DNA of 60,588 nucleotides from Verrucomicrobiales bacterium. GTDB lineage: Bacteria; Verrucomicrobiota; Verrucomicrobiia; Verrucomicrobiales; V1-33. Where the stretch lies: contig JAQGPJ010000104.1 of NCBI GenBank assembly GCA_028293125.1, forward strand, positions 1 to 60,588. Reading direction: 5' to 3'. The notes under the pieces were generated by a model. It ran no database searches. It saw nothing but the letters and a program-made list of their open reading frames with translations, and was not told the origin of the DNA. Both the position numbers and the translations under genes were made by a program. The stretch's first letter is position 1; every line of letters starts with the position of its first letter. Below are positions 9,701 through 60,588 of this stretch, piece after piece.

Positions 9701-11850
9701 GCACCGTGAGCGGCACGGCCACCCAGGGCAGTGACTTCACCCTGCCCCCGGGCACACTCACCTTTGCGGCGGGACAGTCGTTCAAGGTGCTTCCACTGGT
9801 CATTCTGCCGGACTCCGAGGCGGAATCACCGGAAACCGTGGTCATCACCCTGACGGACCCGGTGAATGCGGAACTGGGCGCCATCACCACCTTCACCCTG
9901 ACGATCCGCGAAAGCACCGTCCCCGCTCTGAATATCACCACGGGCACCGCCATCGTGTCTGAAAACGCCGCCTCGGCGGATTTCACCATCACCCGCGGCG
10001 GCACAGCCAGCACCCTGCCGCTGACGGTGCATTACACCTTGGGCGGCAGCGCGGTGGCGGGAACCGATTTCACCGCCCCGGCATCGCCCGGCAGCCTCAT
10101 CATCCCGGCCGATGCGGATTCCGCCGTGCTTTCCATCGCGCTGTTGAATGACGATCGGGAGGACGGGAGCAAAACGCTGACGGTCACCGTGGCCCCAGAC
10201 GCGGCCTACGCTCTGGGATTGAATTTCCAAAGCGGAATCACGATTCAGGATGATGACGCGCCACCCAGTGTGACCATTCTGGAGCCGGTGGCCAAATCGG
10301 CGGCTATTCCGTCCGGCGTCGGGCTGATGGTGCGGGCCCAGGGCACCGCCGCCACCCCCCAGGGCATCACCACGGTGCCCACGGTCTGGAGTCTGGTAAG
10401 CGGCCCCGGCGAGGCGGCCTTTGAACTGGACAGTGGCCGCACGGCTGTGAAGTTCACCGCCAACGGCGACTACATCCTGCGCGCCACAGCCAGCGACGGT
10501 GCCCGCAGCGGGTCCGCCGATCTGACCGTTACGGTGGGAGCGGTCCGCACCGCCCAGGATGTGGGCAGCACCACAGTTCCCGGTTCCTGGACAGAAATCG
10601 ATGCCGTCGAAGGCTCAGGCCAAGGCGGGAAAATCACGCTCTCCGGAGCCGGCTCCGGCATCAGCGCCTCCGGCACCAGCGATGGCTTTTATTTCCTGGC
10701 AGCCCCTGTCAGCGGAAGCTTCGATGTGCAGTGCCGCCTGACGGCCTTGGACAATCCTGCAAACAGCGGCTCCTGCCGCGCCGGCATCATGGTGCGGGCC
10801 TCCACCGCGGCCAATGCGCCGTATGCCATGTCCCTGTTCAAGTCGGACCTCAACCACGCCTTCCAAGCCCGGCTCACGGCAGGAACCAATCCCTACGATT
10901 CCACAGGCGGCACCCCGGTCTCCCTGCCTGGCTGGCTGCGGTTGGTGCGGACGGGCAACACCTTCAGCGCCTACCAGAGCACCGACGGCAGCACATGGAC
11001 CCAGCGCGGCAGCACGCAGACCATCGCCGGCATGGGCAACTCGCCGCTGCTGGGTTTTGCCGTGACCAGCGCCGCTGAAGCCATGCCCTCCACGGCCTCG
11101 TTCGAGGGTTACACCGGAAGCCTGCCCACCAACATCGGGCCTGCTGTAAGCACCGGCACGGTGCCTGGCGGCGCCAGCCCTTGGAGTTTGGACGCCACCG
11201 TCACTGATGACGGACTGCCGGCACCCGCCGGACTTGCGACTCTCTGGCGGCAGATGAACGGTTCCGGAACCGCCACCTTCAGCGCCGCCACGGCTGTGGA
11301 CACCACCGTGGATTTTCCGGCCTCCGGCACCTACCTGCTGCGGCTCAGCGCCAGTGACGGCGCGGTCACCACCTTTGCCGAGACCACGGCCACCGTCAGT
11401 GTCTCCATGTCCCCACTGCAGGTCTGGCGGCAAACGCACTTCGGCACCACGGAGGACAGCGGGCAATCCGCCAATCTGGCGGATTCCGACCAGGACGGCT
11501 TGGCCAACCTGCTGGAATATGCCTTAGGCACCGAGCCCAAAGCCGCCACCGCCCCGCTTCTGGAAATGACATCCGAAGGCGGCCAGTGGACTCTGCGGTT
11601 CCCCCGGCGCAGCGGCAGCGGTCAGGTGGTTCTGACCCTGCAAAGCTCCGCTGATCTGGAAATCTGGACGGCCGTCGCCCACAGTGAGAATGGCAACGCC
11701 GTCACCACGGCGGATCTCGATGCCACGGCCACCGAGACGGCCGGGGAGAACGGCATCGTGGCCGTCAGGGTGGCGCTTCCGGCCTCAACGGAACAAGCTC
11801 CCAAACGTTACTTCCGCCTGCTGGCGGAGCCGGCGGCGGTGTCTCCATGA
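6790..11850 (+). CDS. Calx-beta/PKD tail of the interrupted secreted protease
   Basis: This is the in-frame continuation of the metalloprotease. In local numbering it has the end of the catalytic region (1-60), a PKD-type domain (about 65-147) and a carboxypeptidase-regulatory-like beta domain (about 152-230). Eight Calx-beta-type modules follow (about 232-1150), each with a 'GTDY/F...' and 'N/D-D' pattern typical of Ca-binding loops. Then come a PKD-like domain, a concanavalin-like domain (about 1240-1430), another PKD-like domain, and a C-terminal module with D-S-D-Q-D-G and L-L-E-Y-A-L-G ending in Y-F-R-L-L. Such tails occur on giant cell-surface or secreted proteins of Verrucomicrobiota and relatives. 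If translation really restarts at 6790 the product lacks any export signal, so it may be a dead fragment. Confidence 0.75.
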   Translation: MSNAGHLVDTTPGSADGKNDGGIRIGRTYTDPEADMHFTVLGKNGTQPPSLDLMYNRGPFPGNRPPEAALTANTTTIAPGGSITFTAAATDPDGDTLSYHWDFNDGVPVTSTPVFTRVFPSTDQMTVHLTVSDMKGGTTRRHVLVNVGSHGRRTITGRVLAGGQPLADVRITNGSKYCFTDSDGNYILSDLTTGSHNLTASLAGHTFTPGFNNPFNATSGTNIGNWTANPAVLVSLTKTSDAAEGGANGVFTLTRTGSTSSALKVRVATADGTAAFSTDYTFSPNYANDGLFKTFTIPAGAASLPITVAAVNDTSQEGPETVTLSLAANGGYIASGLNYAVMTLEDNDSRLPKVSVLPTGPYAMELASPQAGEFTFYRSGDADDALTLSVTWSGPAGNGTDYTPLPSTVTFPAGQKSTTVSVAPVNDSAIETPEDCTVAISSGAGYLRDSTAQSATVVISDDDTPVVTVTALDALASEEGRDPGVFLITRTGGTAAPLKVYYGLSGSALHGTDYIALPGEITVPAGSASAPVMVTPYDDDLGEPEEQSVVLNLTTFNNAYSVGAANSATVNIRDNDDRPVVSVRAGGSPAEPSTAGAFIFRAIGSATGNITVRYTVTGTATAGTDYTRLSGTVSLPANGSNDVTVNIPVRNDTLPEPTETIIVTITPDAAYEIHNDGTATARLKDDERGTPVMVSTWNTTPAEGGAAGKFYLSRANASTGALAVKYSLSGTAVNGTDYTLLSGTATIPGGETGVDVNVTPINDTLVEGTETVTLTVDPDTNYDVDQPGSATLYLQDNESPPVSVRFASTTGTTTEAPDAATGEYRDVPVQLSAASTNEVTVEYTSAGGTAAGDNTDWAFVDASPGNAVIPGGILTFPAGTTTQNIRIRVKNDGVAEGDETVILTLQNARFARTSSSTVTHTLTIKDANNPVRRVSFLTASGTRSETEGSEPMLMAVLDRAADNSAAVSVNCTVSGTATQGSDFTLPPGTLTFAAGQSFKVLPLVILPDSEAESPETVVITLTDPVNAELGAITTFTLTIRESTVPALNITTGTAIVSENAASADFTITRGGTASTLPLTVHYTLGGSAVAGTDFTAPASPGSLIIPADADSAVLSIALLNDDREDGSKTLTVTVAPDAAYALGLNFQSGITIQDDDAPPSVTILEPVAKSAAIPSGVGLMVRAQGTAATPQGITTVPTVWSLVSGPGEAAFELDSGRTAVKFTANGDYILRATASDGARSGSADLTVTVGAVRTAQDVGSTTVPGSWTEIDAVEGSGQGGKITLSGAGSGISASGTSDGFYFLAAPVSGSFDVQCRLTALDNPANSGSCRAGIMVRASTAANAPYAMSLFKSDLNHAFQARLTAGTNPYDSTGGTPVSLPGWLRLVRTGNTFSAYQSTDGSTWTQRGSTQTIAGMGNSPLLGFAVTSAAEAMPSTASFEGYTGSLPTNIGPAVSTGTVPGGASPWSLDATVTDDGLPAPAGLATLWRQMNGSGTATFSAATAVDTTVDFPASGTYLLRLSASDGAVTTFAETTATVSVSMSPLQVWRQTHFGTTEDSGQSANLADSDQDGLANLLEYALGTEPKAATAPLLEMTSEGGQWTLRFPRRSGSGQVVLTLQSSADLEIWTAVAHSENGNAVTTADLDATATETAGENGIVAVRVALPASTEQAPKRYFRLLAEPAAVSP

Positions 11851-27835: not shown

Positions 27836-28447
27836 ATGAAATTAAATGAGCCGGTGTTCCCGGATACCCCTGCCACCGACTCCCCGCCGGTGGACAATCA
27901 GGACGAAGTGCGGGACCTTCTCCGTGGCATAGCCAACGGTGACCGCGCAGGATTTGCGGAGTTCCACCACCGCTTCTCCGGAATGGTGTACGCCACCGCC
28001 CTCCAGATCCTGCACAACCACGAGGACGCCCAGGACACTTCCCAGGAGGTTTTTGCCTCCCTGTGGAAAAAAGCCGGGATGTTCGTGAACGACCGCGGCA
28101 AGCCGTCCACTTGGATGGCTGCACTGGCCCGGAACCGGAGTATCGACAAACTGCGGTCCCGGCAGCGGCGTTCGAAGCTGAATGATTCCTTCGAGGGCGA
28201 AACCCGGGTGGAGAGCCATATCCTGCGCAGTGATCCATCCAAAGAGACGGGAATCCTGGAAATGAGCCATCAAGTGCGCACCGCCGTGATGGAGCTTTCC
28301 GAGGATCAGCGGCATGCGATCCAGCTGGCGTTTTTTGACGGCCTGACCCAACTGGAGATCGCCAAGCAGACTGGAGAGCCCCTGGGCACCATCAAGGCCC
28401 GCATCCGGCGCGGCTTGGGTCGTCTGCGCGACATTGTGAAGGAGTAG
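27836..28447 (+). CDS. ECF-type RNA polymerase sigma factor (SigK-like)
   Basis: The 203-residue product has region 2 with the E-D-A-Q-D-T-S-Q-E-V-F element, a linker, and region 4 with L-S-E-D-Q-R-x-A-I-Q-L-A-F-F-D-G-L-T-Q-L-E-I-A, ending in an R-I-R-R-G-L-G-R-L-R recognition helix. This resembles the SigK branch of ECF sigma factors. There is no anti-sigma gene beside it; the next gene is a PAS histidine kinase on the same strand, 115 bases away. An upstream GTG at 27806 is open, but the ATG at 27836 fits better. Confidence 0.85.
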   Translation: MKLNEPVFPDTPATDSPPVDNQDEVRDLLRGIANGDRAGFAEFHHRFSGMVYATALQILHNHEDAQDTSQEVFASLWKKAGMFVNDRGKPSTWMAALARNRSIDKLRSRQRRSKLNDSFEGETRVESHILRSDPSKETGILEMSHQVRTAVMELSEDQRHAIQLAFFDGLTQLEIAKQTGEPLGTIKARIRRGLGRLRDIVKE

Positions 28448-28562: not shown

Positions 28563-29756
28563 ATGAAGTCAGGCTTTCTGGACAAACTGATCGAACGACT
28601 GGACCGCGTAGGTCCGGGCGAGGTTCAAAACCTGCTGCACAAGCTGCTGCGCCGGAAGGGATTTTTCGAGCAGGTGTTCGAAGCCTTGGAGGAGGGGGTC
28701 ATCATCTGTGATCCGCAGGGAATGGTCACTTTTCTGAACCGGGCCGCCTGCGGGTTTTTCGGGCTGGATCATGAAACCTCCCCCGGTCGGCGGCTGGAGG
28801 ATGTCATCCGCGGCCTGCAATGGACGCTGCTGACCAAACGCCGCGAGGTCGTCAGCCGCGACATGGAGGTGTATTATCCTGAGCACCGCTGGTTGAATTT
28901 TTATTTCCGCCCCATTGATGATGCATCAGGAGGGGACCCGGTGGGCTACGTGATGCTGATCCGTGACATCACCCAGACCCGCCGCATGACCGAGGAGCAG
29001 ATGGAGAGCGAGCGGGTCAATGCTCTGATAGTGCTGGCTGCCGGAGTGGCGCACGAGATTGGCAATCCGCTGAACTCACTCAACATCCACCTCCAGCTTT
29101 TGGAGAAGAAGCTGAAGAAGGCGGACCGCGCGGTGTATGACAAGGTCAGCGCCCAGATCGACATCGCGCGCGGCGAAATCCAACGGCTGGATTTCATCAT
29201 TGAGCAGTTTCTGGGTGCCATGAGACCGGTGCCGCCGGTGTTTGAGCTGACGGACATCAATCAGGTGATGGAAAGCGCCGTCACCTTTCTGGCACCGGAA
29301 CTCAAGGACCGCCGCATCCGCACCCGGCTGGACCTGCACGGCGGCCTGCCCCTGCTGCGGATCGATGCCGCCCAGATGAAGCAGGCGCTTTACAATCTGA
29401 TTAAAAACGCCTCCCAGGCCATGGGCACGGGAGGCACGCTGTCACTGCGGTCGGAACTGACAGATTCGGATGTGGTGATCAGCGTGGAGGACTCCGGCAA
29501 GGGCATGTCCCCGGAGGTGGTGGCCAACATGCACCAGACATGGTTCACCACCAAAAAAACCGGCACCGGCCTCGGCATGATGGTGGTCCGCCGCATTGTC
29601 CGCAGCCATGGCGGTGAGCTTTCCATCGAAAGCGCGGAGGGCCGGGGCACCACCGTGCGCATTGCCCTGCCCCGCACTGCCAAAGCCGCCCGTTTTCTGG
29701 AAAGCGGCGATGCGCCGCCCCGCCCGCCGGAACAGAATGAGGTCATTGATGTTTGA
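28563..29756 (+). CDS. Soluble PAS-domain histidine kinase
   Basis: The 397-residue protein has an N-terminal helical part, a PAS domain (about 35-140), a HisKA dimerisation helix with A-H-E-I-G-N-P-L (phospho-accepting His164), and an HATPase domain with an N-box (N-L-I-K-N-A-S-Q-A), G1 (D-S-G-K-G) and G2 (G-T-G-L-G-M). No membrane segment is present, so it senses an internal signal. The cognate response regulator is not adjacent. The start codon lies directly after a strong hairpin and lacks a Shine-Dalgarno sequence. Confidence 0.9.
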   Translation: MKSGFLDKLIERLDRVGPGEVQNLLHKLLRRKGFFEQVFEALEEGVIICDPQGMVTFLNRAACGFFGLDHETSPGRRLEDVIRGLQWTLLTKRREVVSRDMEVYYPEHRWLNFYFRPIDDASGGDPVGYVMLIRDITQTRRMTEEQMESERVNALIVLAAGVAHEIGNPLNSLNIHLQLLEKKLKKADRAVYDKVSAQIDIARGEIQRLDFIIEQFLGAMRPVPPVFELTDINQVMESAVTFLAPELKDRRIRTRLDLHGGLPLLRIDAAQMKQALYNLIKNASQAMGTGGTLSLRSELTDSDVVISVEDSGKGMSPEVVANMHQTWFTTKKTGTGLGMMVVRRIVRSHGGELSIESAEGRGTTVRIALPRTAKAARFLESGDAPPRPPEQNEVIDV

Positions 29757-37046: not shown

Positions 37047-40000
37047 TTACGGCTTGGTCGCGGAGACTCGGTAGAACAGGCGCTGGCCGGAGGCTCCGGC
37101 AGGGGCCGGCACCGACCATTGCTCCCAGAGGCGACCGGTGGAGTCCCGCTGACTGCCGGTCAGGGTGGGCTCGGAGTTGGACCAGTTGGTGAGGTCAGGG
37201 CTGACCTGCACTTTCCAGTCAAAACCCTCCGCGGCCCCATTGCGTGGAATCTCCAGCCGGATGGATGCCGGTGATCCCGCCGCAGCTCCCGCCACTGCGG
37301 TCACACGCGGTCCGAGCGCCGAGCCCGCGTCGCCTGGATTGGAGCCGAACATGTATTCCAGCAGGTCCGGTATGCCATCACTGTCCGTGTCCGTTCCGGG
37401 AATGCCAGTGAAGGCCGCACTGTCCGTCGCCCCGGGAGCGCCGCCTGTGGAGCCGCTGGTGCGCCAATTGCTCCCGACTGCAGGATCCGGAGCGGGATGG
37501 CGGGCCGGGTTGTTGAGCACTATGCTGTAACCCTGTCCGTCCGTAACCTGCGGCCAAGGAGCGTTGTTGCTGTAGGTGAAATTCCAGATCACTGCTCCGT
37601 CCTTGTCGATAAGGCTGATATTCTCTCCGCTGTTGTTCAGATTGCCGCTGAACTCTCCTGCAATCACCAGGGAGGCGTCATTGCCGTAACGGGCGCGGAA
37701 AGCCGGGATGCTGTTGCAGAGCAGCACCCGTCCGCCCGGGGGAATAATCGGGGCGGGGGTGGTGCCTTGGGTGAAGTTGAGCTCATCCACGGCTCCCGAC
37801 AATCTCACATTGGTGAGATCAACGGGACTGCCGCTGGTGTTGAGAAACTCAATGAACTCAAAATCCGGAGCCTGCGCGGTGGCTCCGAGCGTCAGAACCT
37901 CCGCCGCCGTGGGAGCCAGAGGCGCGTAGTTGATTTCCGAAATCACCAGATTGTCCTTGGACGCCGGCTGGGCTCCGACGATGTAAGTGGACGTCGTCAA
38001 CGCCGACCACAGGCCGGTTTCCGGAACAAACAGACGGGCTTTGACTGTCGTGGTGGAGGAGACGGTAAAAGGGGCGGCGTAAGCCGGGGCAGTGATGGCC
38101 GGCAAGGTGCCGGTGGGTTTTACCCCCAAGGCACCGAGAATGCTGGGCGAGCACAGGAAGTCATTGTCGGACACGGATTTGTTCACTGCCAGGATGGCCA
38201 GCATATTGGCGCCCTCCTTGAGATTTTGGATGGCATTGGAGATATCCACGGTGACACCGGTGGTGGCCCCCATGGTGTCTGTGAAGTTGTTGGGCACCGC
38301 GTCGGCCACCGTGTTCCAAGCGGTCATGGTTTCAGGCTTCACATACTGCCGCGCGGCCTCCAGACCGTTCACGTAAACGATGAATCCATCATCATAGCGC
38401 AGCTTCGTCTGCAGCCGCACCAGCCGCGCCTTCTGGTCCGCCGTGATGCTAAACGGCACCCGCAGAAAAGCTGTGGAGCTGAGGTTGTACATCTGGTCCT
38501 GCAGATTCGACGTTCCGCCGTTCCAAGTGGTGTCCCCGGAATGGTTCCCCGCCATGTAATATTTGAAGGGATTGGAGGAGGAGGTGGTCTGTGTCTCAAA
38601 GCCGATGCCGAGGGTGCCCGTGGTCCAGGAGGCGGCGTTGGGTGGATTCTCCAAACCTGTCCACGATTCAATGGACTGGGTAGCGCCGCCATTGGCTGTA
38701 GACGGCACCAGCCACGTGCCCTGGCTGAATTCCGGCAGGATGGTGACATTGGTGGAGGTTGGCATTTTATAATCTGCCGGGCGCGGATCGCTGCCGTCCG
38801 TGGTGTAGTAAATCTGGCCTTTGGGAAAGTTCACGCCCCGCACCGTGCCGGCAAAGGGCGTCAGACTGATCTGCGCGGTGCTGCCACTGTCGCTTCGCAT
38901 CATTACCGGCGGACGGCCCGGGGTGCTGAGAATTCCATACTGATTGTCGATCCAGTTCAGCCGCTCCGTCAGCCAGTTTTTCATATAGGCGACCTCGGCT
39001 TGAAAGGTCGTGCGGGTGGTGGCCGAGGATGGATTGGGCCATGGAGCCTGCCCCAGAATCGGGTATTTACGGAAGTGCCGGGCGATCGGGGAAATGTTAG
39101 CCAAGGCTGTGGCATTGGTCACATTGGTGGGATTGCCGTCACGCAGCAGTTCGGACACGGCATCGATCCGGGCCATCATAGCCTCCGTGCTCCAGATGCC
39201 GCGCCGCAATTCCCAGTAGCGGTCAAAAGTGGCGACGCGGTAGTTGGGGTCCGATAGCAGGCGCGGGAACCACAGCTGCCCCGACAGCGCTGCCGTCCGG
39301 GTGCTGTCATAGTTCCAGCCCGTGCTGTACTCCCCCTCCGCGTAGTTGGCATTGCCCAGGGAGATATTGAAGTCCCATAGGGGGCCGGCACGGAATTTCC
39401 CATTCCGGTCCTTGTTGAAGTAAGTGCTGAAGACGTAACCGTCGATCTGTTTGGAGATTTCCACCGCCAGCTGCCAGTCGATGAAGGTGTCCACGTCGAT
39501 CCAAGCTTTGTAGCCGGTGGTGGGATTGGTATAATTGGCTCCGTTGAGCGCCGTCTCAAAAGAGTTTATGTACGTCCGGATGGCATTCAGCTGGGGCGTG
39601 GGGAAAGTGTCGGGGGTGACACTCTGAAAAGGCACTCCGGTGGTGGAGGTCCAGCTGGTGGTCCCGAGACTGGCCTTGTCCTTCTTGAAAATATACCCTC
39701 CGCTGATATTCGGCTGGCTGGTGACCAAGGGATTGGTCTTCGCAATATTCACCCGGTTGGTGTCCCGCTTGATCTTCTCGACGAGCAAATAGACACCCTT
39801 GTAGTCGCTGTAACTGACCGGCTGGTTGGCCTGCTGATTGAAGAAGACCTCCACAAATTTGGTGCGGGGCGAGAACCAGTCCTCCCGCGCATCCTGGAAT
39901 GACGAGTAGATGAGGTGATTCCGCATCATGGTTTTGTCGGAATAAGGGCCGTGGAGAATCCAGTCCGACTCCGCCGGCAGGCCCAGGATGGACTCATTCT

Positions 40001-41813
40001 TGTCCTCGCCGGGCTCATTCCAGGTTTCCCAGGCATAGGACTTCTGATCAAAGCCGGAGGAGCTTTCGCCGCGGACGTGGGTACCCGAACGGCCCCGGTA
40101 ATCCACCGGTCCATCCAGTTTGGTGCGCTTGGTGACCGGATCCGGAGCCAACGTCACGGCATAGGTGGGACGGAAGGGGCGCGCCGTCCCCGGATTAGTG
40201 GTGGCATCCACATTGACCCCGAAACTGTCAAAGATGATCACCGGAAGATTCGAGGAGAAGATCTGGCCGCTGCCGTTGTAATTGGTCAGGGTGGAGTCCA
40301 GCTTTAGAAAGGTCCGGCTGTTCACCGGGCCAGGCAGTTTGCCAGGCTCGAAAACCCGGGCACGGACCGTGGCCGTGTTCGTGATGTTGAAGGGACCAGT
40401 GTAAACCGGCGATAACTCCGTGGGCAGCGCCTGGGTGGTGGTGTAACGCACCACCGCGCCCGGTGCCAGAGGGGTGGTGATGGACAGGGAAACCGGCGCG
40501 GCGTTGGTCAGCAGGCCGCCTCCCTGGGAGTAAACCACCTCCTCCGCCGGCAGGCCACCGGCGACGAGGCTGATATTCTTGGTGCCGGGCGTCGGTGTCT
40601 CCAAATATCCCCGGGTCCGCGAGGCTCCAATTTCCCCATAGGAGATATCCTTTTTCTGCTCTCCGTAGGTGTATTCGGAAGCGATGGTTTTGTCCGGCCG
40701 CACCAACGCCAGGTAACCGCTGGTTTTGGAGAGGGAAAAATTGGTGTGCAGCACTCCCGTGGCCACGGTGCGGTTCTTGCCGGAGGCGAAAATGACGCGG
40801 TAGGCATTGGCGTTGAGGGTGAAGGCCGGCAGCGTCCACTTGGTGGGAACCGCTGGATCGTCCGTCAGATACCAGCCGGCCATGGCGGCGGGGGCGGTGC
40901 TTCCATTGAAGACTTCGATCCAGTCGTTGGCTTCAATATCCTCATCCTCATAGGAGCCTCCATTGTCGGCCACAAATTCGGAAATCACCGGTCCCCCCGT
41001 GGAGACTGTGGTGGCCGGCGTGGTTGAGACCCGGAGGGTGTCGATGGCGATTTCCTGGGAGGCCGCCGCTCCCGTCCGGGCGGAAAAGGCCAGCCGGTCG
41101 CCCACCCCCGGCGCAAAGCCGGGAACCGCCAGCCCGGTCACCACCGGCGTTCCGTCATAGGTTAGATTCAGCCCCGCCGCCGCAGTCCACTGGATGTTCA
41201 CCGCCCGAAAGGTGTCGCCGTAGGCGAAGGTTTCGGGATAACTGGCGATTTTGACGCGGTTGGCGTAAACCACGATCTCTCCCTGGGTGGCTCCTTCCTC
41301 CGTGTCAACATAGGTCACCCACGCGATCTCCAGCCCGCCGGGCAGCGAGAAGCCAAACTCCCCGTCGCCGTTGTCCGCCGGAATGCCGCCAAAGGAAACC
41401 GACATGCCCTGCCCGGGAATGCCGGCGGCTTTCAGCTTCAGGGTGAAGGAGACCGTCAGTCCGCTGATGTCCTGACCCGGATCGATTTCCGGCAGCTTGA
41501 AGGAGGAGACCGAGTTGAAAACGCCATCGGCCGTCAGCCGCAGCGCCGCTGACTGAATGGAGGCCACCGTCGCCGTGGGATTGTCCGGGGTGGCGCTGGC
41601 CACCGCCGAACCGTCATTCCAGGAAGCTGAGCCCGTCACCACGCCATCGGCGTAGCTGAAATTCTGGGAGCCGGTTGCCGGGTAGCTGGCACCCTGGGCC
41701 ACCGTTGCTCCCAAAAAACCCCCACTCGCCAAAACCGCGAGGGATTTGAGCATGGGATGCCGGTGGCGGAGCCGGAGGAAATCAAGGAAAGAGGGGGTTG
41801 CTCGAGTGCTCAT
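37047..41813 (-). CDS. Giant secreted CotH / lamin-tail-domain protein
   Basis: The 1,588-residue protein has a signal peptide (leading to V-A-Q-G-A) and a beta-sandwich domain. A lamin-tail domain follows (about 265-400; V-I-S-E-F-V, N-D-W-I-E-V-F-N), then a chitobiase-C-like domain. The CotH-like region (about 520-860) has Y-R-G-R-S-G-x-x-V-R-G-E-S-S and P-L-W-D-F-N. A second chitobiase-C-like domain and a second lamin-tail domain (about 1285-1405; V-I-S-E-I-N-Y) come next. The end is a D-S-D-G-I-P-D-L-L-E-Y-M-F-G module. CotH proteins include atypical kinases of spore coats and partners in secreted glycoproteins; here the role is likely cell-surface or extracellular. Two ATG starts are plausible (41813 or 41753). 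The second directly precedes the signal-peptide core. Confidence 0.82.
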   Translation of the reverse strand: MSTRATPSFLDFLRLRHRHPMLKSLAVLASGGFLGATVAQGASYPATGSQNFSYADGVVTGSASWNDGSAVASATPDNPTATVASIQSAALRLTADGVFNSVSSFKLPEIDPGQDISGLTVSFTLKLKAAGIPGQGMSVSFGGIPADNGDGEFGFSLPGGLEIAWVTYVDTEEGATQGEIVVYANRVKIASYPETFAYGDTFRAVNIQWTAAAGLNLTYDGTPVVTGLAVPGFAPGVGDRLAFSARTGAAASQEIAIDTLRVSTTPATTVSTGGPVISEFVADNGGSYEDEDIEANDWIEVFNGSTAPAAMAGWYLTDDPAVPTKWTLPAFTLNANAYRVIFASGKNRTVATGVLHTNFSLSKTSGYLALVRPDKTIASEYTYGEQKKDISYGEIGASRTRGYLETPTPGTKNISLVAGGLPAEEVVYSQGGGLLTNAAPVSLSITTPLAPGAVVRYTTTQALPTELSPVYTGPFNITNTATVRARVFEPGKLPGPVNSRTFLKLDSTLTNYNGSGQIFSSNLPVIIFDSFGVNVDATTNPGTARPFRPTYAVTLAPDPVTKRTKLDGPVDYRGRSGTHVRGESSSGFDQKSYAWETWNEPGEDKNESILGLPAESDWILHGPYSDKTMMRNHLIYSSFQDAREDWFSPRTKFVEVFFNQQANQPVSYSDYKGVYLLVEKIKRDTNRVNIAKTNPLVTSQPNISGGYIFKKDKASLGTTSWTSTTGVPFQSVTPDTFPTPQLNAIRTYINSFETALNGANYTNPTTGYKAWIDVDTFIDWQLAVEISKQIDGYVFSTYFNKDRNGKFRAGPLWDFNISLGNANYAEGEYSTGWNYDSTRTAALSGQLWFPRLLSDPNYRVATFDRYWELRRGIWSTEAMMARIDAVSELLRDGNPTNVTNATALANISPIARHFRKYPILGQAPWPNPSSATTRTTFQAEVAYMKNWLTERLNWIDNQYGILSTPGRPPVMMRSDSGSTAQISLTPFAGTVRGVNFPKGQIYYTTDGSDPRPADYKMPTSTNVTILPEFSQGTWLVPSTANGGATQSIESWTGLENPPNAASWTTGTLGIGFETQTTSSSNPFKYYMAGNHSGDTTWNGGTSNLQDQMYNLSSTAFLRVPFSITADQKARLVRLQTKLRYDDGFIVYVNGLEAARQYVKPETMTAWNTVADAVPNNFTDTMGATTGVTVDISNAIQNLKEGANMLAILAVNKSVSDNDFLCSPSILGALGVKPTGTLPAITAPAYAAPFTVSSTTTVKARLFVPETGLWSALTTSTYIVGAQPASKDNLVISEINYAPLAPTAAEVLTLGATAQAPDFEFIEFLNTSGSPVDLTNVRLSGAVDELNFTQGTTPAPIIPPGGRVLLCNSIPAFRARYGNDASLVIAGEFSGNLNNSGENISLIDKDGAVIWNFTYSNNAPWPQVTDGQGYSIVLNNPARHPAPDPAVGSNWRTSGSTGGAPGATDSAAFTGIPGTDTDSDGIPDLLEYMFGSNPGDAGSALGPRVTAVAGAAAGSPASIRLEIPRNGAAEGFDWKVQVSPDLTNWSNSEPTLTGSQRDSTGRLWEQWSVPAPAGASGQRLFYRVSATKP

Positions 41814-45642: not shown

Positions 45643-52553
<6,911 letters not shown>

Positions 52554-52557
<4 letters not shown>

Positions 52558-54695
52558 TTCCCCTCCCTGCGCCCGCATTGTTCCCCATGAAACACGATTT
52601 CCCTGAGTCAGGCGAAAAACAGCTGCCCTTGGCGGCAGGCTCCGGGCCGGATTCCCCTACCGGCGCCCGTGCGCCGGAGGATGAGGCCATCCGGATCCTG
52701 ATCGTGGATGACGAGCCCCGGAACCTCACGGCGCTGGAGACCGTGCTGGACGATCCGGGCTACAGGCTGGTGCGCGCGGTCTCCGCCAGCGAGGCCCTGC
52801 TGGCGCTGGTGGCCGAGGACTTCGCCCTGCTGATCCTGGATGTGCAGATGCCGGACATGAACGGCTTCGAGCTGGCGCTGATGATCAAGCAGCGGAAGCG
52901 CTCGGCCTCCATCCCCATCATCTTCCTGACCGCCTACTCCAGCGAGGACCAGCACATGCAGGAGGGCTACAGCACCGGCGCGGTGGACTTTCTTCACAAG
53001 CCCATCAGCCCCGCCATCCTGCGCTCCAAGGTCTCCGTCTTCGCCGAACTGCACCGCCGCACCCGTGAAAGCGCGCAGGCCAACCGCATCCTGATGCGCG
53101 AGGTGGCCGAGCGCCGCCGCGCTCAGGAGGATCTGCGCGAGCTCAACGAGCAGTTGGAGCGCCGCGTCAGCGCGCGCACCGCCGAACTCACGGTCAGCGA
53201 GGCCCGCTTCCGCGCCCTGGCCGAGGAAATGCCGCACCTCGTCTGGGAAATGGACGCGGAGGGCCGCACCACCTATCAGAATTCACGGTCGGCGGCTTAC
53301 AACGGCCCCGCGGAGCATTGGATCCACTCCGTGCATCCGGAGGATGCCCCGCGGACCGCCGCCGCATGGGCCCAGGCGCTGGCATCGGAGAGGGAATGTG
53401 ATCTTTATTGCCGCCAGCGGCGGATCAGCGACGGGGAATACCGGTGGTTTCACGTGAAAGCGGCCCCGGCCCGCAATCCCGCGGGGGCCATCATCCGCTG
53501 GGTGGGCACCAGCACGGATATTCATGAGCAGCGAAAGGCCGAGGAGGCGCTGCGCATGGCCGACCGGCGGAAGGATGAGTTTCTGGCGATGCTGGGCCAT
53601 GAGCTGCGCAATCCCCTGGCCGCCATCCGGCATGCGGTGCGCATCCATGCCGACACTCCGGGAGATGAGGCCACCCGCGTCTGGGCCAACGAGGTCATCG
53701 ATCGCCAGAGCACCCAGCTGACCCGAATGGTGGATGACCTGCTGGATGTGGAACGCATCAACCGCGGGCGGATCGAACTGCGTTTCGGCTTCGTGCGCCT
53801 GGAGTCCGTGCTCTCCGCCGCCGTGACCGCCGTGACGCCGCTGATGGAGTTGCGGAGGCACCGGCTGACCGCCGAGGTCCCGGACACAGGCCTGAGCATT
53901 CACGGGGATGCGGACCGGCTGGAGCAGGTGTTTGTCAATCTGCTGACCAACGCTGCGAAATACACTCCGGAGGGAGGCCAAATCCGCCTCAGCGCACGGG
54001 TGGAGAACAAGGAAGCGGTGGTTTCGGTGGCGGACAACGGCGTGGGCATCGAGCCGGATCTGCTGCCTTATGTCTTTGACCTCTTCACCCAGGCCACCAC
54101 CTCCTTGGACCGGGCCCAGGGAGGTCTCGGTATCGGGCTCACGGTGGTGAAGTCCCTTGTGGATATGCATGGAGGCTCCGTGGCCGCCAGCGGCGGGGAC
54201 GGCGGGGGATCGGTCTTCACCGTGGTGCTGCCGCTCACCGCCTCCGCCCCGGTGCCTGCGGTCCCTCCCCCTCCGCGTCCGGAATCCACCTCCCTGCCCC
54301 GGCGCGTCCGCGTGCTGATTGTCGATGACCATGTGGATGCCGCCCGCACACTGGCGCGGCTTCTTTCCCGCAGGAACTGCGAGGTCCACCTCGCCCATGA
54401 TGGCCCTGCGGGCGTGGCGGCGGCCCGGGAGTTCCATCCTGAGGTGCTGCTGCTGGATCTCGGTCTGCCAGGCTTTGACGGCTACGAGGTTGCCCGCCAG
54501 CTCCGCAACGAGCCCTGCTGTGCCGGCGCGCTTTTTATTGCCATATCCGGCTACGCCCAGGAAAGTGACCGGCACCGGTCCGCCGAAGCCGGTTTCGAAT
54601 ACCACTGCGCCAAGCCCGTTGATTTCGCCACTCTGCTCACCGCCATCCGCACCCGGCTGTTCCTCAATTCCCCGGAGCAGGCGGCTGCTTCCTGA
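52554..54695 (+). CDS. REC-PAS-histidine kinase-REC hybrid kinase
   Basis: The 713-residue soluble protein starts with a receiver domain (about 45-160; Asp96 in [10 protein letters not shown]). It is followed by a coiled coil, a PAS/PAC domain (about 215-325), a HisKA helix with G-H-E-L-R-N-P-L (His349), an HATPase domain (N-L-L-T-N-A-A-K-Y and D-N-G-V-G-I) and a C-terminal receiver (Asp635). The start ATGA overlaps the stop of the poly-HAMP kinase, so both are made from one transcript. An in-frame ATG at 52587 is an alternative start. With its neighbour it forms a phosphorelay without a local DNA-binding regulator. Confidence 0.9.
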
Positions 54696-54743: not shown

Positions 54744-56480
54744 TCAGTTTTTTCCACCGGCGGAGGCCAGTTTGAGGCTGCTGAGCACCCTGCTGCGCTG
54801 GTCGTCACTGAGAGTAAGTTTGCTGATTGCCAGTTGAGCCGCGGCGGGATCAGTGGCCAGAAGTTTTGCCAGGGATTGACGGGCATTGTTGATGGGATCG
54901 AGGGAATTGATGGGCCCCGTCTGAAAGGCCCCGGGAGGAATGGCGTGCTCAATGGCTCCCAGATAAAGCGTTTCGCGGCGGGGATCGTTCACAGGCAGCT
55001 TCCGCAGCCAGTCCATGGCGGCATCCGGCTGGGAGCGGGTCCAAGCCTGGAAGGTTTCGGCGATCACCGCTTTGCGGGATTCCTCAGGCACCTGGCTGGC
55101 CCATTCGAGGGCCTCCACCGGCTGCTCCCGCACCAGATTCCGGGCGGCGGAGGACAGGGCCTCGGGTCCCGCATCCTGGCCGGCGGGAGTGCGCAGGTAT
55201 TCGGCGAATCCCTTGGGATCCTGCTCGCCCCACGTCCAGGAGACGTGGGAGATCACCTGTTTTCGGGATTCAGCATCCAGCTGCCCCAGCCACGCGATGG
55301 CCTCCGGTTTGACGGAGCGGTTGGACGAGTTGAGTCCCGGCCACCAGCTGTTGTCCTTATAAAGAATGGCTTGTGCAAAAGCGACTGCCGCCTTCGCCCG
55401 CATAGGCGAGGCCTCCAAGCCCGTGACCATGGCGGCGGCGGCCTCGGCATTCTGCGTGGCGGTGCCTTTGACAAGGCTGTTGATCACCTCCGACTGCTGG
55501 CTGCCGGAGGTGTTGGCAAGACACCATTGCAGGGCATTGGGCGCGTCCTTCCTGCCCCAGGACTCGATGAAGGCGGGAAGCAGGCGCGCCCGCTCCGGCC
55601 CGTCGGCGGTGGCCAGCCAGTCGGAGGCCTTGTCCAGATCCTTCTCCACCCAGCGGCTCAGCACCTGATTGGCCATCTCCACCCCCAGCACACTGTTCTG
55701 TGAGGCCGCGAAAGCGAGGGCGCCCGCTGCATCGCTGTCGGCCCACACTTTGGCGATGGCTTTCATGGCCTCCTGGCTGGCATAGCCGGCGGGATGCGCC
55801 AAGGCCACCTCCGCCGCATGTTTGGGATCAGCCGCAGCCCATTTCTCCACCCCCCTCATATGAGGGCCATAGCTTTCAATCCCGAGATCGCTCATGAGGA
55901 TGAGCGCCTGCTCCGGGCGGCTGTCAAACAGCGTGTTCAGCGCGGAAAACTGGATGCCCATCTGCACGCTGAGGCTGCCCCTCAGGGCGGCCAGCACGGC
56001 GTCAGGATCCTTTTTCGGCCAGGTCTCCATCAGCAGCTGGGCCAGCTCGTTGGCGGGAAAACCGGCACCGGCCTCCACGGGATCGCGGCAGACGGCAAAA
56101 AGACCGGCGGGGTCCAGATCGATCCAGTGCGCGCCCAGCATATTCAAAGCCCCCGGCAGTTCCTGCGCCATGCGGGCCAGCTGTGGAAAATCTTTAGGAC
56201 CCGCCTTTTCCACCGCCGTCATCCACAGCAGCCAGCGGGTGACCCCGTGGCTCAGGGAAAGATCAGTCCTCAGCTTGTCCGCCAGCGCGGATGAGACGGA
56301 GGCCAGCCGTCCCGGTGCGGAGGCTGGCAATCCCGCAGCGCCGCCCTGCCCGGCCAGGGCTGAGGACGGTGATTTCCCATCCGGCGAAACCGGACCTTCC
56401 AGCTGCAGCAGGGCGCTGATGCCAAAACCAGCCGCCAGACCCAGCAGGGCGGAACAGGTGATCAAAGGAAGACGTTTCAT
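54744..56480 (-). CDS. Exported Trp/Ala-rich helical repeat protein
   Basis: The 578-residue product has an N-terminal signal or anchor segment (M-K-R-L-P then hydrophobic to about 26). It continues with repeating helix pairs in which short motifs of the W-x-x-x-D-P/A-x-x-A-L-x-W type recur roughly every 35-45 residues (for example S-W-G-R-K-D-A-P-N-A-L-Q-W and W-T-R-S-Q-P-D-A-A-M-D-W). I do not recognise a named domain; the pattern is reminiscent of TPR/Sel1-type solenoids. The same repeat style makes up the C-terminal half of the sigma-factor fusion 42 bases upstream on the same strand, so the two are very likely co-transcribed and functionally linked. Confidence 0.7.
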   Translation of the reverse strand: MKRLPLITCSALLGLAAGFGISALLQLEGPVSPDGKSPSSALAGQGGAAGLPASAPGRLASVSSALADKLRTDLSLSHGVTRWLLWMTAVEKAGPKDFPQLARMAQELPGALNMLGAHWIDLDPAGLFAVCRDPVEAGAGFPANELAQLLMETWPKKDPDAVLAALRGSLSVQMGIQFSALNTLFDSRPEQALILMSDLGIESYGPHMRGVEKWAAADPKHAAEVALAHPAGYASQEAMKAIAKVWADSDAAGALAFAASQNSVLGVEMANQVLSRWVEKDLDKASDWLATADGPERARLLPAFIESWGRKDAPNALQWCLANTSGSQQSEVINSLVKGTATQNAEAAAAMVTGLEASPMRAKAAVAFAQAILYKDNSWWPGLNSSNRSVKPEAIAWLGQLDAESRKQVISHVSWTWGEQDPKGFAEYLRTPAGQDAGPEALSSAARNLVREQPVEALEWASQVPEESRKAVIAETFQAWTRSQPDAAMDWLRKLPVNDPRRETLYLGAIEHAIPPGAFQTGPINSLDPINNARQSLAKLLATDPAAAQLAISKLTLSDDQRSRVLSSLKLASAGGKN

Positions 56481-56522
56481 GATTTGGAAAAGTCAAAAGA
56501 ATTTGGCGGCTGCCCGTTCCGT

Positions 56523-59186
56523 TCAGTGGATCTCCGCGCCGCTCCCTCCTGCGGTGACCGCCTGCCGCAGCTGCTGCTTCTCGGCATCCGCCAAGGCGGA
56601 GCGGTCAATCCAGTGCAGCGCCTCCTGCGGATCGCGCTTGATCACGGCGGACAGAGCTCTGCCGGCGGCCTGCACCCTTTGCGGGGAATCACCGATGGAG
56701 ACCGCCCACTCCCAGGCTTCGGCGGGCGAATCATCAGCCACCTCGTTCACCAAACTGCGGGCTCCCGCATCCCGGTCCGGTCCGACTGGCAGGGCGGCGA
56801 TCCATTCCGACGCCGCCAGGGAATCCCGCTTCAGCCAGCCGTCCGCCACCGTGCCCACCACTGTGGGCCGGTGCTCCGCCGGCAGGTTGAGCGTCCAGGC
56901 GGCGGCCTCCTCCGGGGATTTGGCAGCCCAGGCGCGGGCCAGCTGCTCCGTGGCCCCCAGCCGGTTTTCAGCGGGCACCTCGTTCAGACGCGGCAACCAT
57001 TGGGAGGCGCTGCCAAAGTTGTCCGGATTCAGGAAGTTGAATGTCATGGCCACCAGCCGGGTTCGCATGGCCGGCGGCACATCGGGCAGCATGGCCTCCA
57101 CCCGGCCCAAGCGGGAACCGCCATTGATCAGGCTCTGCGCCAGCCGGTCCAGCGTTTTCCTGCCCTCCTCCGTGTCCGGCTGCTCCTTGGCGATGGCCAA
57201 GGTCAGTTCCGGATTCTGCCAGCCGGCCGAGTTGAGCACCGAATCCTTCAGGCTGCGCAGGGCCTCACTGTCCGGCTGCTTTTTCAGCCAATCCCACACT
57301 TTGCCCAGCTGCGGTTTGGAGTCATTCAGCAGCGCGCTGCTTAGGGCGTTGTTGAGCACTCCCAGTGTGCCCTTTTTCAGTTCCGCATCGAGAAACCTGA
57401 CGGGATCGGCATTGAGCCGTCCGGTCACGATGCTGGCCAGCCCAATTGTATCCTCACCGGAGACTTTGCCGGGGTTGTCTCTCAGCCACCCCGTGGTGCC
57501 GTCGAAATCCTTGGCCCCCGCCTCCTTCAGCAACCGGGCAGCGGTGCTGTCCGCGAAATATCCCGGTCGGCCTCCGGGCGGAACGATGGCCACATTCTCC
57601 AGCGCTTTTTTGGGATCGGCGGAGGCCAGTCCCATGAGTGCGCTACGGAGAATAGCCTCACGGTCCGTGCCCTCCGGCAAAGTTTTGACCCACGCCGCAG
57701 TGCCCGCGAAATCTTTTTGCCCCCAGGCCTTGGCCACTCCCGCGAGGGCCTCGCCCCGGCGGGAGCCGGTCAGCGTTTCGGCGGTGGCGCGGGCGGATTC
57801 CAGATTGCCCGCCGCCAGGATGGCGAAGGCATCGGTCACCGGATGGCTCCAGTGATCGTTGTTCTCCGACAGACGGGCCGCGATGGCGGCGACAGATTCC
57901 GGAGCCCGGCGGGCGATGGCCGTCAGCACCTCCGACTCCCCGGCCAGATCGTCACCCGGTTTTCCCAGACTGGTCAGCTTCGCCATCGCGGCCTGCGGAT
58001 CCCGCGCCAGCCATTCATGGAAAATCTGGCGGGACTGGACGCGGTCGCCGCCTCTGCTGATGAAGAAGCTGAGCCCGCCCGCCGGATCCACCTCCGCCCA
58101 TTCCGAAACCAGCGCGGCGCGGAAGGCGCGGCGGCGGAAGGTATCCTTGATGTCCGCGATGGCTTTGAAAAGCTCAGGCATGGACTCAGCATCATGGCCA
58201 TGCTCCTCATGCAGCCGGTGCCATTCCGCGAACAGTTCGCTGCCGCTGAAATCCGGTTTGAAGTCCGCCACCGCCACTTGGGGCGCGGCTTTGGTCCCCT
58301 GCTCCAAGGGCGCGGGCGGCGGGTGCGTGCTCTGATGCACGGCATAACCCACAGGCAGGCAGGCGAAGGCAACCAGCGTGGCGGTGAAAAGAGAAGCTTT
58401 GGAAGTGGTCATGGCGGTGATGGCGGCGGGAGTGGTGACGGTGGCCGTGGATGAACCGGCGGCGGCGGTGGTGGTGGTGGTCGAAGCTGAGGCTGAGGCG
58501 GTGATGGTGGCGGCAGCCGCAAAAGCCCCTCCGGCAATCACCGAGGGAGCGGACAGGGCTCCGATGGCGGCGGCGATGGCCACGGTGAACACCGCGCCGG
58601 GCTGGGTGCGCCGGAGCGCGGTTTCAATCAGGCCGGCCATGCGCTCGCGCAGCAGTTCCCGGCCACGGGCGAGGCGCTGCTTCACCGCGTCCTCGCTCAG
58701 CGCCAGGGTTTCCGCGACCTCGCGCACGGACTGGTCCTGCCGGTAAAACAGCACCAGCGGCAGACGGTAATTCTCTGGCAGCCTGGCCAGCGCGTCCCGC
58801 ACCAGCGCCGATTCCTCACCACTGGCCGCCAGCTGGTCCGGCAGCATCTGATCCTCATCCGCCAGCTGCTCATCCATTTCCTGAAACTCCACATCCCGCG
58901 TCCGCCGCAGATGCCCCAGAGCGGCATTCCGCGCAATCTGCGCCAGCCAGGCGCGCAGTTTCTCCGGCTCCCGCAAATCCTGGATTTTCCGCCATGCCGT
59001 CACAAACGCCTCCTGCGCCGCGTCCTCGCTGGCCGCAAAATCCCCCAGCACCCCCAAAGCCACCCCGCACACCATGACCTGATGCCGGGCCACAATCTCC
59101 ACAAACGCCCGCTTCTCCCCGCGCTGCGCCGCCCGCACCAGCAGGGAATCCGGGGATTTGGAGCTGGAATCGGGAGGCGGGTTCAT
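56523..59186 (-). CDS. ECF sigma factor fused to membrane segments and a repeat domain
   Basis: In this 887-residue protein the N terminus is a full ECF sigma factor: region 2 at about 15-90 (E-D-A-A-Q-E-A-F-V-T-A-W) and region 4 at about 130-185 (L-P-E-N-Y-R-L-P, E-V-A-E-T-L-A-L-S-E-D-A-V-K-Q-R-L). Two hydrophobic stretches follow (about 197-228 and 264-283), separated by an Ala/Ser/Thr low-complexity linker. The rest (from about 300) is a helical repeat domain with W-A/L-x-x-D-P-x-x-A motifs. The layout suggests a sigma factor held at the membrane with its repeat domain possibly outside the cytoplasm. It is first in an operon with the exported repeat protein. Confidence 0.82.
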   Translation of the reverse strand: MNPPPDSSSKSPDSLLVRAAQRGEKRAFVEIVARHQVMVCGVALGVLGDFAASEDAAQEAFVTAWRKIQDLREPEKLRAWLAQIARNAALGHLRRTRDVEFQEMDEQLADEDQMLPDQLAASGEESALVRDALARLPENYRLPLVLFYRQDQSVREVAETLALSEDAVKQRLARGRELLRERMAGLIETALRRTQPGAVFTVAIAAAIGALSAPSVIAGGAFAAAATITASASASTTTTTAAAGSSTATVTTPAAITAMTTSKASLFTATLVAFACLPVGYAVHQSTHPPPAPLEQGTKAAPQVAVADFKPDFSGSELFAEWHRLHEEHGHDAESMPELFKAIADIKDTFRRRAFRAALVSEWAEVDPAGGLSFFISRGGDRVQSRQIFHEWLARDPQAAMAKLTSLGKPGDDLAGESEVLTAIARRAPESVAAIAARLSENNDHWSHPVTDAFAILAAGNLESARATAETLTGSRRGEALAGVAKAWGQKDFAGTAAWVKTLPEGTDREAILRSALMGLASADPKKALENVAIVPPGGRPGYFADSTAARLLKEAGAKDFDGTTGWLRDNPGKVSGEDTIGLASIVTGRLNADPVRFLDAELKKGTLGVLNNALSSALLNDSKPQLGKVWDWLKKQPDSEALRSLKDSVLNSAGWQNPELTLAIAKEQPDTEEGRKTLDRLAQSLINGGSRLGRVEAMLPDVPPAMRTRLVAMTFNFLNPDNFGSASQWLPRLNEVPAENRLGATEQLARAWAAKSPEEAAAWTLNLPAEHRPTVVGTVADGWLKRDSLAASEWIAALPVGPDRDAGARSLVNEVADDSPAEAWEWAVSIGDSPQRVQAAGRALSAVIKRDPQEALHWIDRSALADAEKQQLRQAVTAGGSGAEIH

Positions 59187-59451
59187 AAAGGAAAGTCGCG
59201 GTGGCGGCGACGGAGCGGAAGGGTGTCATCAGGGCTGATGCGCTTTCAGGCCAAGTGGTGACAAAAATTTTTAGCGGTGCCGCGTAACCGCAGTTCAGGT
59301 GGAAATACTGGTGTTCAGCCGGTGAATTCTCCCGGCTGCCAAGATGCCTTGTCATCTGCGGGGCACTGCCAAGTCTATAATACCATTTCCAAAGATATTC
59401 CGGTTAATTCGCAGGCGGATTCCCTGCACAAATTTCAGCGGCTTGGGTAGA

Positions 59452-59808: not shown

Positions 59809-60117
59809 ATGAAAAGCCGTCAACGATACACTCCCGAATTCAAAACCCAGGCGCTCGATCTGCTGGCCACCGGAAAACCCGTCCAGGAGCTCGCCGGAGA
59901 GCTGCGCGTCAGCCGCAACCTGCTTTACAGCTGGCGCGCGGACTCGCAGAGCCCGCAGTTCGGGAGCGGAGGATCCTCCGCCTCCGGCGGAAGGCCCGAG
60001 GCGGACGAACTGCGGGCTCTGCGGCGCGAAAACGCCCGTCTGCAGGTAGAGAATGACATTTTAAAAAAGGCCGCAGTTATCCTCGGGACCAGAGTCCAGC
60101 CCGGCTCCGCGAAATGA
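59809..60117 (+). CDS. IS3-family transposase OrfA
   Basis: The 102-residue protein has the OrfA helix-turn-helix (Y-T-P-E-F-K-T-Q-A-L, then E-L-R-V-S-R-N-L-L-Y-S-W-R) and a leucine-zipper-like helix (E-L-R-A-L-R-R-E-N-A-R-L-Q-V-E-N-D-I-L-K-K-A) used for multimerisation. It binds the element ends. A slippery A_AAA_AAG near its 3' end (60063-60069) would make the OrfAB fusion transposase. Its TGA overlaps the ATG of orfB. Confidence 0.92.
   Translation: MKSRQRYTPEFKTQALDLLATGKPVQELAGELRVSRNLLYSWRADSQSPQFGSGGSSASGGRPEADELRALRRENARLQVENDILKKAAVILGTRVQPGSAK
60063..60069 (+). other. Programmed -1 ribosomal frameshift site A_AAA_AAG
   Basis: In the orfA frame the codons are TTA AAA AAG, so the heptamer A_AAA_AAG is in the slippery phase. 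The -1 frame is open from here into orfB without a stop. This is the usual means by which IS3 elements produce the active OrfAB transposase. Confidence 0.8.
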
Positions 60118-60588
60118 TCGACGGTATCCGCGCGGACACCGGCCACTCCGTCCGCATCATATGCTCCGTGCCGGACGTGCCGCGCAGCAGTTATTACCAC
60201 GCCGCCGCGCCCACTTCCACGCAGCTCTCCGACGAAAGGATCGGGAAGGTCATTGAGGAGATTTTCAAAAGCCATCAAAGCCGTTACGGACACCGCAGGA
60301 TCTCCGCGGAGCTGGCCGCCAAAGGACTCACCTGCGCCCCGGCCCGTGTGCGCCGCATCATGCGGGAGCGGGGCCTCAAAGCTCTTCAGCCCAGGAGTTT
60401 CACGCCCAAAACCAGCGATGGCCGGGCCGACTGTCCCTCTCCAAACCTCCTCCTTGACCGCCCTCTCCCTGACGCTCCTGACAAAGTATGGGCCGGCGAC
60501 ATCACCTGTATTCCTGTCGGCCAGGGCTGGATGTATCCGGCCGTCGTCCTTGATCTTAACTCACGCAGAGTCGTGGGCTGGGCGCTGG
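60114..60588 (+). CDS. IS3-family transposase OrfB, 3' end beyond the window
   Basis: The frame from ATG 60114 encodes an rve-type integrase fold. After an N-terminal helical part with S-R-Y-G-H-R-R-I-S-A-E-L comes the start of the catalytic core with W-A-G-D-I-T (first Asp) and V-V-L-D-L-N-S-R-R-V-V-G-W (second Asp region). The third catalytic Glu lies beyond the edge, as does the right end of the element. It is in the -1 frame relative to orfA, consistent with fusion by frameshifting. Confidence 0.9.
   Translation, partial: MIDGIRADTGHSVRIICSVPDVPRSSYYHAAAPTSTQLSDERIGKVIEEIFKSHQSRYGHRRISAELAAKGLTCAPARVRRIMRERGLKALQPRSFTPKTSDGRADCPSPNLLLDRPLPDAPDKVWAGDITCIPVGQGWMYPAVVLDLNSRRVVGWAL

Follow-up and report, generated by a model that had tools for sequence, protein, structure and literature searches.

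A predicted membrane-tethered ECF sigma factor with a helical-repeat extension and a co-inherited repeat-protein partner in Verrucomicrobiales

Membrane-fused extracytoplasmic function (ECF) sigma factors are an established kind of regulator, and some groups, such as ECF42 and ECF57, bear repeat domains (PMC8999054; PMC8103513). In IutY of Pseudomonas putida (ECF243), the sigma factor is fused to a membrane anti-sigma domain, and proteolysis of this extension activates it; proteolytic activation has also been proposed for the actinobacterial ECF48, ECF52 (SCO4117) and ECF53, which possess one or two C-terminal membrane helices and an outside domain (PMC8999054). ECF42 is thought to be regulated by a protein encoded in its genetic neighborhood (PMC8999054), and a study of Tuwongella reports ECF sigma factors recovered in detergent-soluble fractions (PMC8567305). 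The literature searched yielded no functional study of verrucomicrobial sigma factors with long extensions, and no description of the sensor repeat family and fixed partner considered below.

Here we analyze a two-gene locus from a 6.48 Mb Verrucomicrobiales genome assembled in 120 contigs. The stretch of DNA studied, called the window, spans a complete contig (60,588 nucleotides). A preliminary description of the locus had proposed a one-component transcription switch, in which a membrane-tethered ECF sigma factor carries a sensor-like repeat domain. Sequence-level evidence supports the predicted tethered sigma factor and its sensor-like domain, but the one-component label does not hold, as the fusion belongs to a two-gene unit with a conserved adjacent partner.

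Composition and predicted topology of the fusion

The fusion gene and its parts lie on the minus strand:

56523-59186, minus strand: sigma-linker-repeat fusion, 887 residues (open reading frame; sigma domains; full-length orthologue)
58896-59093, minus strand: sigma region 2, residues 32-97 (Pfam PF04542, E=9.3e-16)
58650-58805, minus strand: sigma region 4, residues 128-179 (Pfam PF08281, E=2.8e-11)
58536-58598, minus strand: first hydrophobic stretch, residues 197-217, GAVFTVAIAAAIGALSAPSVI (membrane-like here and in orthologue L104)
58338-58397, minus strand: second hydrophobic stretch, residues 264-283, likely membrane pass (membrane-like in 36 fusions)
56544-58238, minus strand: fusion repeat domain, residues 317-881, ~17 helix pairs (AlphaFold2 model; repeat motif)

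The complete ECF sigma factor recognized earlier in the 887-residue protein is borne out by Pfam Sigma70_r2 and Sigma70_r4_2, each far above cut-off, and by the NCBIfam sigma70-ECF model, which exceeds its cut-off on residues 27-183. Only regions 2 and 4 (PF04542; PF08281/PF04545) are present, as in members of the ECF group. Pfam matches above cut-off in the fusion are limited to sigma and HTH models, and related solved proteins found by sequence in the PDB match its sigma part only. Beyond the sigma domain, the extension comprises ~590 residues, in which Pfam matched neither WD40 nor TPR families and which AlphaFold2 models as all-helical. Pfam likewise found no zinc-finger or FecR-like anti-sigma domain in the linker or extension, a search that divergent domains could escape. 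As originally noted, no separate anti-sigma gene adjoins the pair, which is flanked by an IS3-type transposase on one side and a hybrid histidine kinase on the other.

The transposase pair (59809-60588, plus strand; HTH_Tnp_1 followed by HTH_21/rve) lies upstream of the fusion and is cut by the contig end. On the other side, a hybrid histidine kinase gene (52587-54695, plus strand) is convergent with the partner gene and ends 48 bases from its end; directly upstream of this kinase gene is a second one (45643-52557, plus strand), encoding a hybrid histidine kinase of 2304 residues in which 13 similar HAMP-type units precede GAF, kinase and three receiver domains. Elsewhere in the window are an ordinary ECF sigma factor (27836-28447, plus strand) followed by a PAS histidine kinase (28563-29756, plus strand), a large exported-looking protein with a Calx-beta/PKD array (6790-11850, plus strand) and a large exported-looking CotH kinase protein with lamin-tail domains (37047-41753, minus strand). 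Defence-system models (PADLOC) gave no match.

Hydropathy places the two hydrophobic stretches of the preliminary description at about residues 199-217 and 265-283. Were both to span the membrane, the repeat domain would return to the cytoplasm and the earlier model would fail: in such a hairpin, the partner would be periplasmic and the two repeat domains would never meet. The first stretch of the window fusion fits this arrangement, since its insertion energy of 0.9, on an approximate scale rather than from a published predictor, and its KD value of 1.9 equal those of the second stretch, and it is strongly conserved between the window fusion and L104. Across 36 fusions, however, the first stretch is weak in most relatives (median approximate insertion energy 2.9), whereas the second is consistently membrane-like (median 1.1, compared with 0.6 for the partner anchor) and is usually preceded by Lys or Arg. 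Furthermore, those repeat proteins of the clade that have no sigma domain start with an anchor at the place matching the second stretch, and the repeat domains are poor in cysteine, at 0.23% compared with 0.95% for the remaining proteins encoded at these loci; the repeat domain of the fusion contains none. Taken together, the family-wide behavior of the stretches, the start anchors and the low cysteine content favor a single membrane pass at about residues 264-283 with the repeat domain outside, and make the hairpin quite improbable. The first stretch is thus probably not a full membrane pass, so that of the two hydrophobic stretches originally described, the second is membrane-like throughout the family, while the first, membrane-like here, is weak in most relatives.

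The partner and the shared repeat family

The gene directly downstream of the fusion, co-directional and separated by a 42-base gap, encodes the partner:

54744-56480, minus strand: membrane-anchored repeat protein (partner), 578 residues (open reading frame; kept beside fusions; mirrored tree)
56403-56462, minus strand: putative N-terminal signal anchor of the partner, residues 7-26 (hydropathy; design shared by 16 partners)
54750-56249, minus strand: partner repeat domain, residues 78-577 (AlphaFold2; fusion-repeat HMM, 252 bits)

A short start and a single N-terminal hydrophobic segment are found in all 16 partners examined. The partner had been called exported, but it is probably a membrane-anchored protein rather than a free one.

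That the adjacent gene encodes a protein of the fusion's own repeat family was correctly perceived, as the two repeat domains align by BLASTP with E=8e-5 and ~30% identity. The W-x-x-x-D-P-x-x-A repeats by which the family had been recognized are real as a consensus of ~32-residue spacing but are degenerate: the fusion contains just two copies of the strict string W-x3-[DNS]-P-x2-A, and the partner a single one. When 28 repeats are placed by predicted helix junctions, the consensus reads W(12) x3 D(16) P(17) x2 A(16) x2 W(12), and in both proteins it extends to W-x3-D-P-x2-A-x2-W-x3-L-P. A motif matrix built from partner repeats scores the fusion repeat domain at z=9.8 relative to shuffled sequences, a value that includes a small leak because repeat positions were refined jointly within 3 residues before scoring. 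By these sequence comparisons, the two domains are homologous but distant.

The preliminary description had named structural dissimilarity of the two repeat domains as the outcome contrary to its model; instead, both are predicted alpha-solenoids with a common helix-pair pattern. AlphaFold2, run with alignments of two sequences, yields helix-pair solenoids for both repeat domains at pLDDT mostly 60-90, whereas the sigma part of the fusion is poorly modeled (pLDDT about 30, again with two sequences in the alignment), so that no conclusion on how sigma and linker are arranged is drawn from it. Structure searches (Foldseek/VIA) return generic alpha-solenoids; the fusion reaches a Z score of at best 11.9, to PPR proteins, and the partner one of 8.9, values within the range expected of helical repeats; therefore, no functional inference is drawn from them. 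Of known helical-repeat families (TPR, PPR, HEAT, Sel1), no Pfam model exceeded its cut-off in the 14 members checked. A Pfam ELYS match (E=0.0026) fell below cut-off and was set aside as a solenoid look-alike, and a PDB search with a repeat profile returned only designed helical proteins, weakly.

Pairing, co-inheritance and a conserved upstream motif

For the fusion gene, the closest named relative is a Verrucomicrobiales metagenome-assembled genome (MAG). An orthologous pair is present on JAQGOY010000224.1, in which the fusion is 47% identical over its full length and the partner 38%. In 11 related intact pairs, the partner lies directly after the fusion with a gap of -4 to 42 bases, and a second pair type exists besides. 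A search covered 387 genomes of the order; after each intact long fusion that was examined among its results, the next co-directional gene encodes an N-terminally anchored repeat protein, and one further pair keeps the partner directly after a decayed fusion. Long fusions or their remains occur in 9 of the 387 genomes, and strong partner matches (E<=1e-24) are confined to exactly these 9. If genomes were independent, the chance of this co-occurrence would be about 2e-18; given that the relatives are phylogenetically dependent, this value, like the p-values for the promoter counts below, is optimistic.

In a quick, midpoint-rooted tree, the partners group in one clade (SH-aLRT 99) whose branching matches that of the fusions, and fusion and partner distances are correlated (Mantel r=0.943, reached in 0 of 9999 permutations). 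These mirrored trees show co-inheritance rather than contact between the proteins, and because the two genes are inherited together they look like one signalling device. A prediction was examined with three strong partner matches whose neighbors were unknown: two contigs, both of genome G150, carry a fusion directly upstream, one of them holding two fusion-partner pairs, while the third match (G098:C484) lies in a repeat pair without sigma. The link between the fusion and its adjacent partner is therefore much stronger, through adjacency, co-occurrence and mirrored trees, than the first reading could know.

Two further loci bear on the range of arrangements. In G003, a genome of the same genus, the orthologous fusion (G003:C20, L107 2763-5687) is decayed: a stop codon interrupts region 2 and approximately residues 91-565 are missing, although this break could instead be a misassembly of the MAG; the promoter motif and an intact partner remain beside it. 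Locus L157 2311-19631 (G098:C259) packs four sigma fusions and three repeat partners into ~17 kb of one contig.

Sigma-extension fusions number at least 12 in the window's own genome, and 7 of these carry the repeat. Besides the window fusion, three others there (L022, L050 and L020) have a repeat gene after them. This genome also encodes at least 32 repeat genes without sigma, which lie apart from sigma factors and point to a function of the family's own, so that the partner might merely serve the sigma factor as effector or target, sharing its operon but taking no part in sensing. We regard this as unlikely, as the partner clade branches in step with the fusions, and as the two-gene unit also occurs without sigma, a finding more readily explained by a heteromeric pair than by a layout of sigma plus target. 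These sigma-free units, in which a long repeat protein and a short one stand in tandem, are found in several genomes, with gaps of -4 to 21 bases:

L183 5080-8504 (G100:C1): sigma-free pair
L105 6470-10091: sigma-free pair
L063 5504-9193: sigma-free pair

In a tree without L183, the sigma-free first members branch near the fusions and the second members near the partners. Given that the two-gene repeat unit exists without sigma, the sigma domain resembles an output module that a pre-existing repeat pair either gained or lost, the midpoint-rooted tree being compatible with both directions. We tentatively suggest, at somewhat less than even confidence, a hitherto undescribed verrucomicrobial family of heteromeric membrane sensors in which two anchored alpha-solenoids with novel repeats would form an obligate pair, and in which the longer solenoid of one lineage would have acquired or kept an autoregulating ECF output.

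Upstream of the fusion lies a candidate promoter:

59237-59263, minus strand: putative ECF promoter TGTCACC-N15-GCATC, 50 bases before the fusion start codon

The same element, with identical spacing, precedes the orthologous fusions of L104 and G003. In the 6.48 Mb genome the exact motif occurs once, at the fusion, where about 0.9 occurrences are expected by chance. TGTCACC is present within 150 bases upstream of 12 of 36 fusions, compared with 6 of 640 other genes and 0 of 25 free ECF sigma factors, and by sigma subclass, assigned by eye from the linker, the counts are 11 of 13 in the window's subclass and 1 of 23 in the other. The motif follows the sigma subclass even where a multi-pass domain replaces the repeat. 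Six loci (L166, L167, L168, L169, L170 and L173) have the window's subclass and an upstream TGTCACC, but their extension is a multi-pass membrane domain instead of repeats. It is common for ECF sigma factors to drive transcription of the operon that encodes them, which makes autoregulation the simplest reading; as TGTCACC tracks the sigma subclass, the fusion-partner operon is likely self-regulated. A looser form of the motif gave 5 exact and many one-mismatch matches in the genome, indistinguishable from background, and a sigma-70-type promoter scan was uninformative. With the strict count near chance and the looser matches resembling background, no further regulon is claimed.

A proposed signalling unit and its relation to known ECF sigma factors

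We propose, with confidence slightly on the favorable side of even, that the pair constitutes a self-regulated two-gene membrane signalling unit. The ECF sigma domain would reside in the cytoplasm, connected by one pass at ~264-283 to a long alpha-solenoid outside the cytoplasmic membrane, and the partner, expressed from the shared operon, would be a second anchored solenoid. Most likely, the two solenoids would bind each other or a common periplasmic ligand. We infer that the tether, possibly aided by the conserved hydrophobic segment that follows sigma region 4, holds sigma inactive until a signal frees it for RNA polymerase, probably because regulated proteolysis cuts the chain within the membrane pass or close to it, for which IutY is a precedent. 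The freed sigma factor would then transcribe at least its own operon from TGTCACC-N15-GCATC.

The sigma factor might instead work from the membrane uncut, as in CadC or ToxR, with the partner or a ligand altering its oligomeric state or exposing the sigma domain. Consistent with this, no protease gene was recognized in the operon of the window pair, and although the genome encodes a site-2-type protease family, Peptidase_M50, such proteases are present in 14 of 14 control genomes; being near universal, M50 says little about sigma release and is not specific to this locus. However, a sigma factor must join RNA polymerase, and a membrane tether would hinder this joining. Moreover, the characterized membrane-fused IutY is activated by proteolysis (PMC8999054). 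An uncut, membrane-bound sigma factor is therefore improbable in our judgment, and proteolytic release of the sigma domain is plausible by analogy. The defined two-gene unit, its candidate promoter and a nameless repeat family open three questions to experiment: by what means a tethered sigma factor becomes active, whether sensor modules pass between pairs with and without a fused sigma factor, and what signal the repeat family perceives.

Compared with described systems, the fusion resembles IutY in its N-terminal ECF sigma factor and C-terminal membrane extension. IutY, however, acts in siderophore cell-surface signalling and has an anti-sigma domain, whereas the window fusion has no detected anti-sigma domain, a helical-repeat extension and a repeat-protein partner. 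ECF48, ECF52 and ECF53 likewise have a membrane-spanning C-terminal extension, a feature predicted from sequence for the fusion, but theirs includes an anti-sigma domain of the zinc-finger type and, for SCO4117, also a carbohydrate-binding domain, neither of which was found in the fusion by Pfam. ECF57 and other planctomycete ECF sigma factors with WD40 extensions share a repeat domain C-terminal to sigma and many paralogues; those repeats are WD40 beta-propellers rather than an alpha-solenoid, and the text consulted on them mentions no anchored repeat partner. ECF42 has an alpha-helical repeat extension too, yet this consists of ~200 residues of TPR, in contrast to the ~590 residues with a W-DP-A-W motif found here, and the partner of the fusion is itself a protein of the repeat family. 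Membrane-fused ECF sigma factors are thus already known, and what differs here is the repeat family, the undetected anti-sigma domain and the dedicated, probably anchored partner.
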